Position numbers and translations under genes: made by a program. The notes under the pieces are model-generated. The model did not search any database, was not told where the DNA came from, and saw only the letters and a program-made list of their open reading frames with translations. From the NCBI RefSeq assembly GCF_900110555.1, contig NZ_FOEE01000005.1:124001-188000 (forward strand): 64,000 bases of DNA. Reading direction: 5' to 3'. Positions 1,116-61,202 of this stretch are shown here, one piece after another (the first letter of the stretch is position 1; the number at the start of each line of letters is the position of its first letter). The stretch is from Trujillonella endophytica. GTDB lineage: Bacteria; Actinomycetota; Actinomycetes; Mycobacteriales; Geodermatophilaceae.

Positions 1116-1453
1116 CGAGAGCTGAGCCGCTGCATCTCGCGGTCGATCGCCCGCTCGCTGATCGGCCGGCTCGGCGGGCCGAAGGTCGCCCACGCGTGGA
1201 ACGCCAGGCCGATGCCCCACCCGGCCATCGGGAAGAGCGGCCAGGGGAACCAGGCGTCGGCGGTGAGCCCGACGACCAGCCAGACGGTCCAGAGCAGCCC
1301 GTTGACCCCGACGTAGGCGATCAGGTGCTCGGCGAACTCCCGCTTGGCGCGCAACCGCCGCACGGCGGCCGTCCTCAGGTCCGCGGGCGGCTCGGACGGC
1401 GGGCGGTCCGGGACCGGGCGGTCGTCAGGAGTCGAGGGATCGTGGACGGACAT
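1112..1453 (-). CDS. 2TM domain-containing membrane protein
   Basis: A 113-residue protein of the small 2TM family. A Pro/Asp-rich N-terminus (about 1-25) is followed by a basic helix, two hydrophobic segments (about 45-65 and 70-90) and an Arg/Glu-rich tail. The ATG at 1453 gives the family's usual size; longer readings are low-complexity. It is the first gene of a two-gene unit with the P-type ATPase and overlaps its start by 4 nt. It could be a small accessory subunit of the pump, but that is inference from coupling only. Confidence 0.75.
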   Translation of the reverse strand: MSVHDPSTPDDRPVPDRPPSEPPADLRTAAVRRLRAKREFAEHLIAYVGVNGLLWTVWLVVGLTADAWFPWPLFPMAGWGIGLAFHAWATFGPPSRPISERAIDREMQRLSSR

Positions 1454-1703
1454 GGCCTCTCCCGTGCTGCCGTCGCCGACCCGGTGGCCGGCTCGTCCCA
1501 GGATCGGGTCGGACGCGCACCCCGCGCGGCGGCCGGAGGTCACGCCCGCACGGGCCAGCGGCCCTCCCGGCCAGAGACCTCCGGCCCTCCCCGGCCCGGG
1601 CTCCGGCGGGAAGCGTTCGCCCGACCGTTGTGGCCGGCCGACCCGTCGCCGGCCCGCGGCACGGACACCCGTCCGGCAGCGCACGGACTCCCTGGAGGTC
1701 CCG

Positions 1704-2003
1704 ATGAGTGCAGATCGCCCCATCCGCATCCGCCGTCCCGTCGCGGTCGGGCCCGTCGTGGGCGGACCGGTCGCGCTGCGCGCGCTCGCGGTCGGCGCCC
1801 TCGCCGTGGGCGCCTTCGCGGTCGGGTCGCTCGTGGTCGGCTCGGTGGCGGTGGGCCGTCTCGCCGTCGGCCGGGCGGACCTCAAGCGGGTCCGGATCGC
1901 CCGCCTGGAGGTCGACGAGCTCGTCGTCCACTCGGTCACGGGCCTGCCGGTGGGCGGCCCGCCGGCCTCGACGCCGCCCGGGCCTGAGGGCCTCGCGAGG
2001 TAG
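1704..2003 (+). CDS. Small pentad-repeat protein (AVG-type repeats)
   Basis: A 99-residue protein of unknown function. After a short basic N-terminus it consists of about 13 consecutive five-residue units of the type ALAVG, AFAVG, SLVVG, RLAVG, ending in RADLK-RVRIA-RLEVD-ELVVH. Such strict spacing fits a beta-solenoid related to pentapeptide-repeat folds; the fold is inferred. The tail is Pro/Gly-rich. The ATG at 1704 has TGGAGG about 7 nt upstream. It is divergent from the 2TM gene across a 250-nt gap. A second tandem-repeat protein of different period is at 12217. Confidence 0.65.
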   Translation: MSADRPIRIRRPVAVGPVVGGPVALRALAVGALAVGAFAVGSLVVGSVAVGRLAVGRADLKRVRIARLEVDELVVHSVTGLPVGGPPASTPPGPEGLAR

Positions 2004-11495: not shown

Positions 11496-12038
11496 TCAGA
11501 CCGGCCCGGGGCCGCCCTCCGGGGTGATCACGTACCACCACCCGCCGTTGAGGAACACGTCGTGGCAGAGCACCTCGCCGGGCCCCTCGTTCGCGTAGGT
11601 GTAGAGCGGATGGCCGGCATAGGTGACCTGCACCGTGCCGTCCCTGCGCTGCGTGGTGCCCAGGAGTGCGGAGTCGGCGGCCCCGTCGGCCTGCGGGGTG
11701 CCGTCGGTGAGCACGGGCGGCCAGGCGGCGGCGCACTCGTCGTAGCAGTCCGGGGAGTTCGGCCGCTCCCGGTCGAACAGGTAGATCGCCTGACCGTTGC
11801 CGTCGAAGAGCATCACCCCGAACTCGCTGTCGCCGGTGACGATCGTCGTCCCGGGGGCGGGACCGGGGGAGGGGGGCGGGGACGGCGTCGTCGGCGGCGG
11901 CGGCTCGGACGTGCCCGGGGTCGCGGATGTCGGGGTGCCCGTCGCCGACGCCCCGGTCGGCTCGTCGTCGCCGCACCCGGCCACCAGCAGACCGGCGGCG
12001 AGGGCGAGCGCGGACAGGGCGGTGCGGGCAGCGGGCAC
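11496..12038 (-). CDS. Lipoprotein with secreted repeats (COG4315/Lipoprotein_15 type)
   Basis: A 180-residue predicted lipoprotein. The N-terminus carries a hydrophobic stretch ending in the lipobox LVAGC (Cys near residue 19). A Pro/Thr/Ser linker follows (about 22-65). The C-terminal half has two copies of the small repeat typical of this family, one containing GQAIYLFDRE and CYDECAAAWPP, the other VTYAGHPLYTYANE. The family has no proven function. The GTG start at 12038 has GAGGAGG 6 nt upstream. It is convergent with the membrane-protein gene, 4 nt away. Confidence 0.8.
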   Translation of the reverse strand: MPAARTALSALALAAGLLVAGCGDDEPTGASATGTPTSATPGTSEPPPPTTPSPPPSPGPAPGTTIVTGDSEFGVMLFDGNGQAIYLFDRERPNSPDCYDECAAAWPPVLTDGTPQADGAADSALLGTTQRRDGTVQVTYAGHPLYTYANEGPGEVLCHDVFLNGGWWYVITPEGGPGPV

Positions 12039-12216
12039 GTCGGCCTCCTCGACAGCGGTGCGGCGGAGCCACTCTCCCAGGGCCGGGTCGGCGGGGGACC
12101 GGGTGCGCGAGCGGCTGTCGGGGGGGCACGGCACTCTCCGGGGCCCGTTGACGCGCACCGGCGCGAACCCCGATCGTGGGCCTCCCGTCCCGGTGGACCG
12201 ACCCGGAGGCACCGCC

Positions 12217-12684
12217 ATGTCCGAGCAGGCCGGAACTCGCCGCACCTCCGGGCGCCCGCCGGGCAGCGCCGTGCCGGACGGGAGCGCCGTGCCGGACGGG
12301 AGTGCCGTGCCGGACGGCAGCGCCGCGACCGTCGGCAGCAGCGCCGTCGTCGGGAGCGCCGCCACCGCGGGGAGCGTGGCCGTCGTCGGCAGCGCCGCCA
12401 CCGCGGGGAGCGCCGCCGTCGTCGGCAGCGCGGCCACCCTTGCGAGCGCCGCCGTGTCGCTGAGCACGGGGGTCGCCGGCAGCGCCGGGGTGATCGGCAG
12501 TGCCGGGGTCGCCCTCAGCGCGGGCGTCGTCGGCAGCGCCGGCATCGTCGCCGGCCTGGCCAACGTCGGCTGCACCGCGTGCGTGGCATGCATCGCGTGC
12601 GTCGACTGCGTGGGCTGCGTCGGCTGCGTGGGGTGTGTCGGGCTCCGCGGCGCCGTGGGCGCGGTCGGCGTGCGCCGCCGGTAG
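12217..12684 (+). CDS. Hexad-repeat protein with Cys-rich ladder
   Basis: A 155-residue protein of unknown function. After about 15 residues the rest divides without gaps into 23 six-residue units. Early units are GSAVPD (three times), then GSAATV, GSSAVV, GSAGVI and similar. Units 18-21 are GCTACV, ACIACV, DCVGCV and GCVGCV, giving eight cysteines at exact 3-residue spacing. The tail is basic (VRRR). Strict hexad periodicity is the hallmark of left-handed beta-helices, in which the cysteines would stack in columns; fold, metal binding or disulfides are inference. No signal peptide is seen. CGGAGG lies 7 nt before the ATG at 12217. Confidence 0.7.
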   Translation: MSEQAGTRRTSGRPPGSAVPDGSAVPDGSAVPDGSAATVGSSAVVGSAATAGSVAVVGSAATAGSAAVVGSAATLASAAVSLSTGVAGSAGVIGSAGVALSAGVVGSAGIVAGLANVGCTACVACIACVDCVGCVGCVGCVGLRGAVGAVGVRRR

Positions 12685-12722: not shown

Positions 12723-13436
12723 CTACGGCGTGGTGGCCAGGTAGACCGTGTTCGTGGCCGAACCACCCTGCAGCGGGTTGGCGAAGCCGACCACCGCCGC
12801 ATCGACGTCGACGAAGACCTCCGACAGCGCCGCCAGGTACTCCCCGTCCGGCGGATCGTTCGACCACAGCGAGAAGACGCCGCCGGGCCGCAGCGACGCG
12901 GCCAGCCGCCGGATGCCGGCCGGGCCGTAGAACGGGGCGGAGGCCTCGTGAAGCAGGTGCCCGGGGGAGTGGTCGATGTCGACGACGACGGCGTCGAAGA
13001 GCCGCCCCGGGGCGTCCGGATCCACCCTGCCCTCCTCGACCATCGCGAAGAAGTCGCCGTGCACCAGCCGGCACCGCGGGTCCGCGGCGACGGCCCGCCC
13101 CACCGGCAGCAGCCCCTGCTGGTGCCACGCGATGACCGGCTCGAGCAGGTCGACGACCAGGACCTCGTGGACCCGGGGGTCGGCGAGGACCGCCTGCGCG
13201 GTGTAGCCGAGACCCAGCCCCCCGACCGCGACGTCGAGCCGGTCGCCCTCGAGCCGCTCCAGGGCGAGCCGGGCGACCTCGACCTCGGCGACCGTGAACA
13301 GGGAGGACATCAGGTACTCGTCGCCCAGCTTGACCTCGAACACGTCGGCCCCGGTCACCGGTTCCCGCCGCCGGCGGAGGGTGAGCTCACCGATCGGGGT
13401 CGAGCACCAGGCGAGCTCCTCGAAGCGTGTGCCCAC
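12723..13436 (-). CDS. Spermidine synthase-like methyltransferase-fold protein
   Basis: About 237 residues with the Rossmann fold of polyamine aminopropyltransferases. Motif I is seen as VAVGGLGLGYTAQ, the acidic end of strand 2 as VLVVDLLEPV, and a DAVVVDIDHSPG segment. Aminopropyltransferases normally carry an Asp-rich catalytic DDG/E motif that is not clear here, so it may be a homologue with another role. The GTG at 13436 was chosen because the upstream codons are low-complexity; GAAGGGG lies just before it. Confidence 0.7.
   Translation of the reverse strand: MGTRFEELAWCSTPIGELTLRRRREPVTGADVFEVKLGDEYLMSSLFTVAEVEVARLALERLEGDRLDVAVGGLGLGYTAQAVLADPRVHEVLVVDLLEPVIAWHQQGLLPVGRAVAADPRCRLVHGDFFAMVEEGRVDPDAPGRLFDAVVVDIDHSPGHLLHEASAPFYGPAGIRRLAASLRPGGVFSLWSNDPPDGEYLAALSEVFVDVDAAVVGFANPLQGGSATNTVYLATTP

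Positions 13437-59194: not shown

Positions 59195-61202
<2,008 letters not shown>

Follow-up and report, generated by a model that had tools for sequence, protein, structure and literature searches.

The gene and its product

The gene analyzed here occupies positions 12217-12684 on the forward strand of the window (the whole stretch of 64,000 nucleotides that was analyzed) and encodes a 155-residue repeat protein with a ladder of cysteines. A Shine-Dalgarno sequence, GGAGG (12205-12209, +), precedes the ATG at 12217 with a spacing of 7 nt. The 155 codons, which are followed by the stop, parse into 15 residues, 23 gap-free hexads (residues 16-153) and two arginines. An earlier note on this DNA, made from the sequence alone, was right about the coordinates, the frame and the 15 residues followed by 23 hexads without insertion (z-scores of 18.7 for period 6 and 17.4 for period 3 against composition shuffles of the window protein); its statement that the hexads account for the whole protein after residue 15 overlooks only the two terminal arginines.

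The GC3 value in this frame is 0.955, but the codon-aligned antisense frame is just as GC3-rich as the sense frame, so that GC3 alone cannot settle the strand. Comparison with four Geodermatophilaceae homologs yields 17-25 synonymous and 10-14 non-synonymous codon differences, with third positions dominating. In the same comparison, non-synonymous differences outnumber synonymous ones in the other forward frames and in two antisense frames, and the codon-aligned antisense frame is at about parity. The frame, the parse and this coding signal between homologs indicate that 12217-12684 (+) is a genuine small coding gene. It is present in a single copy in its own 4.87 Mb genome according to a search of that genome, with which a DNA pattern search agrees; the source genome is close to Blastococcus and Geodermatophilus.

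The protein, all parts of which are encoded on the forward strand, starts with a variable segment of 15 residues, M1-P15 (MSEQAGTRRTSGRPP, 12217-12261), in which, as in the N-termini of its homologs inspected by eye, no signal peptide is apparent. Hexads 1-3 (12262-12315) are three copies of GSAVPD, encoded by a near-identical 18-nt DNA repeat that is specific to this gene. Hexads 4-17 (12316-12567) alternate between V-type and T-type and then become G-rich, with a 12-residue, 36-nt unit in hexads 4-10. Hexads 18-21 (12568-12639) carry the ladder of eight cysteines, at residues 119, 122, 125, 128, 131, 134, 137 and 140, that is, three residues apart at positions 2 and 5 of each hexad, precisely as previously described. 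Even a four-Cys triad ladder appears in just 0.04% of the shuffles of the window protein, and the observed ladder has eight. The C-terminal cap, GLRGAVGAVGVRRR, with the stop codon (12640-12684), carries on the Cys column with L, A, A and V.

The TRF program finds the exact 18-nt repeat at 12260-12325 (91%), which corresponds approximately to hexads 1-3 only, whereas the array at 12315-12459 is best fit by a 36-nt unit (score 185 vs 117 for 18 nt). The proposal that the early units derive from an 18-nt repeat thus holds for approximately the first three hexads and gives way to the 36-nt unit in the array that follows.

Two further repeats in the window are of note. A perfect 18-nt direct repeat of 2.8 copies, encoding PVPDAL hexads, is located at 60272-60321, near the N-terminal end of the ORF 59913-61202 (+), which is tRNA methyltransferase-like; it resembles the GSAVPD repeat in length and PD content. 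The ORF 1344-2003 (+) encodes a pentapeptide-type array (ALAVGALAVGAFAVGSLVVGSVAVG) followed by DLKRVRIARLEVDELVV; it has no Pfam match and appears to be a second small solenoid-like protein in the window.

An apparently undescribed family and its distribution

No Pfam or NCBIfam model matches the window protein or the family members above the cut-off, in line with the earlier note, in which no characterized family was recognized. A literature search retrieved no description of the family, and the plasmid and phage collections contained no match to the window protein. Thus, as far as the literature and the Pfam and NCBIfam searches show, the GS-hexad/Cys-ladder proteins appear to constitute a new, undescribed family. 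Weak profile matches of the Gly-rich part to Collagen and to the collagen-like adhesins SclA and SclB were rejected: they fall below the curated cut-offs, and Gly does not occupy every third position.

The first search identified homologs in Blastococcus sp. URHD0036 and two Geodermatophilus sabuli assemblies (74-79% identity) and in Pseudonocardia eucalypti (51%). Of 115 Geodermatophilaceae genomes, 5 had a clear match to a profile built from these sequences; the remaining, weaker hits in this group are other Gly/Ser-rich sequences. Profiles of the C-terminal part detected the gene in 20 of the 299 genomes searched for the order; within a single genus of that order, 112 of 248 genomes carry it, nearly always in one copy. 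Across the phylum, 12 of 396 genomes gave matches, including some weak ones due to chance. From its order, family and gene content (an Sdh1-type operon and a dipeptide transporter), we take this genus to be Mycobacterium. The family is widespread in actinobacteria and probably present in nearly half of the Mycobacterium species.

Two other Geodermatophilaceae loci (L014:1354-1881 and L018:1390-1887) encode proteins without a Pfam match that contain a Ser ladder with the same three-residue spacing (GSVLSIGSVGSVLSIGS), possibly a Ser counterpart of the Cys-ladder architecture.

Genomic context

The immediate neighbors of the solitary gene in the window are a divergently oriented lipoprotein gene (Pfam Lipoprotein_15) and, on the other side, a convergent gene that has no Pfam match and, by eye, reads as a spermidine-synthase-type methyltransferase. 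Both flanking genes, 11496-12038 (-) and 12723-13436 (-), are absent from four other genomes of the same genus, so that the region is an accessory stretch of the chromosome; in other Geodermatophilaceae, the gene is found at a different chromosomal location.

The 54 mycobacterial loci compared are mostly the best-scoring ones, so that the following fractions are biased. A same-strand SDR dehydrogenase gene adjoins the Cys-ladder gene in 27 of the 54 loci (17 after and 10 before it), and these loci are mostly located downstream of a dipeptide-type ABC transporter operon. When the SDR gene comes after, its start often overlaps the stop of the Cys-ladder gene by 4 nt or 1 nt. In another 8 of the 54 loci, the Cys-ladder gene directly follows sdhB of an Sdh operon. 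The context tracks the subfamily in a tree of these short sequences, with the SDR gene on either side. The SDR ortholog is far more common than the Cys-ladder gene (191 vs 112 of the 248 genomes), and hence does not need the Cys-ladder protein. These data make the association with dehydrogenase genes no more than suggestive.

Conservation and the 12-residue repeat

The anatomy of the family was compared in 60 members (59 fetched loci and the window protein), which share a 12-residue GS array, at least eight triad cysteines in register and a G-[LV]-R-x-A-x-G cap (in the distant member L090, the cap deviates to GEKGAVG). The last eight triad cysteines (positions 0 to -21 from the last Cys) are present in all 60, so that the Cys block of the window protein is the invariant core of the family ladder. 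Four further inner cysteines are common (49-57 of the 60 members) and absent from the window lineage; altogether, the ladder contains 8 to 15 cysteines, and the number is odd (11, 13 or 15) in 23 of 59 members. The last Cys is followed by S/T-G-L-R-N/G-A-V/K-G-L/A-R-D/N-V-H, where G+2 and G+8 are invariant and R+4 is found in 59 of 60 members.

The consensus of the N-terminal array spans 12 residues, G-S-A/V-A-V-A-G-S-x-A-T-A (S2, V5, S8, T11), with alternating V-type and T-type hexads. Thr-Thr coincidence at lag 12 reaches 0.73 (maximum of 0.38 among hexad shuffles) and falls to 0.016 at lag 18 (hexad-shuffle minimum of 0.256); overall identity is 0.58 at lag 12, compared to 0.39 at lag 6 and 0.38 at lag 18, and the non-triad columns of the ladder likewise favor lag 12 over lag 18 (0.26 vs 0.15). 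The array also varies in length by 12-residue steps, with the farthest Thr 54, 66, 78, 90, 102, 114 or 126 residues away from the last Cys. Despite this variation, 51 of 59 members keep Thr at a distance of 6 mod 12 from the last Cys, with shifts of 6 residues in one clade and of 3 in the most distant members (L089 and L090). In the Geodermatophilaceae members, the T/V alternation covers only part of the array. The phase is inherited along the tree, with clade shifts by 6 and 3, so that it provides no independent proof of the coil length.

These comparisons show that the actual repeat of the family is 12 residues, of which the hexad is one half, and that the family grows by a 36-nt unit, the 18-nt repeat being local to the window gene. 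Other expectations of the earlier note are borne out: the homologs keep the hexad phase (the Ser and Cys registers run in phase in nearly all members) and the Cys block, the copy number varies around eight invariant cysteines, and growth of the array by tandem duplication is supported.

A candidate fold with 12-residue coils

AlphaFold2 fails on the window family (pLDDT 36, pTM 0.12, no strands and no beta-helix, with only five sequences in the alignment), so the fold is one that we infer. Three features have to be explained jointly, namely the 12-residue unit, the three-residue spacing of the core-type residues (Cys, Ser and small ones) in both the array consensus and the ladder, with outward-type positions occupied by Gly, Ala and Val, and the tolerance of shifts by 3, 6 and 12 residues. 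Most likely, these features reflect a narrow beta-solenoid with two hexads per 12-residue turn, which fits better than a helix of three hexads per turn.

A known fold of this kind is that of the hyperactive beetle antifreeze protein TmAFP (PDB 1EZG), a right-handed beta-helix that likewise consists of 12-residue repeats and varies by whole repeats. In TmAFP, small or Cys residues at every third position, 2-5-8-11, point inward (PMC8038014), and core-type residues show this spacing in both cases. In contrast to TmAFP, the proteins of the new family lack the TxT ice-binding face and an apparent signal peptide, and their cysteines are confined to the C-terminal coils, where they take all four positions. 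Neither the window protein nor the family profile matches TmAFP in sequence.

The best overall explanation of the data, which we advance tentatively as the likeliest reading but at somewhat less than even odds, is a cytosolic beta-solenoid of 12-residue coils, some of them thiol-lined, that might serve as a soft metal site or thiol store. Every third residue would face inward. These residues would be Ser, Val, Ser and Thr in the N-terminal coils, followed by two or more C-terminal coils with Cys at all four inward positions and by a final capping coil with Leu, Ala, Leu/Ala and Val. In the window protein, the Ser/Val/Ser/Thr coils would be followed by two all-Cys coils, whose 24 residues hold the eight cysteines, and then by one Leu/Ala/Ala/Val cap coil. 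Tandem duplication would lengthen or shorten the N-terminal part by whole 12-residue coils. The lack of an apparent signal peptide suggests that the protein is cytosolic, and the common odd Cys numbers suggest that its thiols are mainly reduced. Our guess is that the stacked invariant thiols, apparently located in a reducing compartment, the cytosol, bind a soft metal ion or serve as a clustered reserve of thiol groups, and that the Gly/Ala/Val outer faces mediate self-assembly or docking, possibly to a dehydrogenase. Such faces are unusual for a soluble solenoid and count against this explanation. The earlier note envisaged the Cys columns as a possible metal or redox wire; with 12-residue coils, the eight cysteines would span just two coils, a length that suits a small cluster site more than a wire.

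Uninterrupted Cys at every third residue is also found in the CxxCxx-ladder proteins of phages (e.g., L060-L065 and Flavobacterium phage FL-1), which often also end, beyond the last Cys, in a tail of the C-x-x-[LV]-x-x-[AG] type. These proteins differ from the actinobacterial family in having 11 to 38 cysteines, no Gly-Ser array, an N-terminal beta-beta-alpha cap and tandem paralogs, and they look unrelated to it. On the viral contigs L060, L061, L062, L063/L065 and L064 (at approximately 1.9-5.4 kb in each locus), the ladder genes form tandem groups of two to five paralogs; the encoded proteins consist almost entirely of CxxCxx triads (12-38 Cys), with a small, confidently predicted N-terminal beta-beta-alpha cap (D-x-x-GN...), and belong to no Pfam family. 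In FL-1 (L046:3650-4366), a 36-Cys ladder ends in CSGLTNARP, a tail similar to the actinobacterial cap; this protein belongs to PHROG 15341, for which no function is described. In an AlphaFold2 model of a phage comparator, only the N-terminal cap is confident and the ladder forms single beta-bridges at every third residue with low confidence (pLDDT 45-60); searches with this model by Foldseek and VIA-align returned weak viral matches but nothing from the PDB. Matches of the phage ladders to 1EZG were rejected as evidence of homology (composition bias of 41.7 bits), and the spacing is used here as an analogy only. The phage ladders show no 12-residue or other preferred period and so are uninformative on coil length.

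Alternative explanations

The protein might lack a monomeric fold altogether and be a silk-like or amyloid-like low-complexity assembler or a membrane-inserting segment, with the Cys block cross-linking the assembly or binding metal. We regard this as unlikely, while acknowledging that the Gly/Ala/Ser/Val composition, the failed structure prediction and a hydrophobic stretch N-terminal to the ladder in mycobacterial members all point in this direction. Against it, the strict conservation of the phase, the eight cysteines and the cap across genera suggests a defined fold, at least in the C-terminal part, and neither a period of 6 nor one of 12 matches that of a transmembrane helix.

The TmAFP analogy itself suggests another function for the ladder, that of a mechanical rivet of the C-terminal end that binds no ligand, given that inward cysteines in the 12-residue coils of the beetle antifreeze fold are disulfide-bonded (Cys2-Cys8). 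Such stapling is distinctly unlikely here: the cytosol is reducing, and the odd ladders argue against obligatory complete pairing. With no signal peptide apparent and Cys counts often odd, a cytosolic thiol or metal role seems likelier than pure disulfide stapling.

Left-handed beta-helices have 18 residues per turn, with inward residues alternately 4 and 2 apart. In the earlier note, this fold was proposed for the hexads, three per turn, so that the cysteines at positions 2 and 5 would form columns on its faces. The six-residue phase and the resemblance of the hexad (V-G-S-A-A-V, or V-G-x-x-A-x) to the hexapeptide pattern of LpxA-type and LpxD-type enzymes speak for this assignment, and the best, albeit weak, PDB sequence match is to one of them, LpxD (E-value of 0.012). 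That match is lost when the family profile is used, and the Pfam hexapeptide model does not match the window protein, for which Pfam gave only Collagen, below the cut-off. The Thr periodicity at lag 12 rather than 18, the 12-residue steps in array length and the triad spacing of the core-type residues all conflict with an 18-residue turn; the family also has neither the loops nor the acyltransferase domain of those enzymes. AlphaFold2, which as a rule recognizes left-handed beta-helices readily, does not form one here, with five sequences aligned. This assignment is accordingly one that we consider quite improbable.

The CxxCxxC motif occurs in ferredoxins, and together with the eight invariant cysteines, enough for two [4Fe-4S] clusters, and the SDR or SdhA/SdhB neighbors in 35 of the 54 mycobacterial loci, it brings to mind an iron-sulfur protein that passes electrons to or from the neighboring dehydrogenases. 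This is very improbable: the CxxCxxCxxxCP motif of 2[4Fe-4S] ferredoxins is absent, there is no CxxxCP, no ferredoxin family (Fer4) match was obtained beyond a single hit to Fer4_3 among 13 members (E-value of 0.43), and the neighbors vary between clades and are not adjacent in Geodermatophilaceae. Finally, a RiPP precursor with the Cys block as the core peptide, suggested by a weak profile match to a lantibiotic chain (E-value of 0.1), is hardly credible, considering that no modification enzyme is encoded among the immediate neighbor genes and that the most conserved part includes the tail C-terminal of the Cys block.

Implications

In its most far-reaching form, which we consider rather unlikely, the preferred 12-residue-coil reading would imply a new structural class, a cytosolic beta-solenoid with an all-thiol core in its last coils. 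Such a protein would be a genetically adjustable rod that carries a built-in site for soft metals or redox chemistry, and perhaps half of the Mycobacterium species would use it, with either an SDR or the succinate dehydrogenase Sdh1 as its companion. The family also provides a structural interpretation of the CxxCxx-ladder proteins of phages, for which no function has been described either. Whatever its role, a strictly regular, Cys-cored repeat family is present in 112 of 248 genomes of the genus taken as Mycobacterium and has so far been without a Pfam or NCBIfam model. Thanks to its regularity (an exact 12-residue phase, eight invariant triad cysteines and an invariant cap), the family lends itself to studying, in a simple setting, tight solenoid folds that current structure prediction misses and the ways in which stacked thiols might be maintained within a cytosolic protein.
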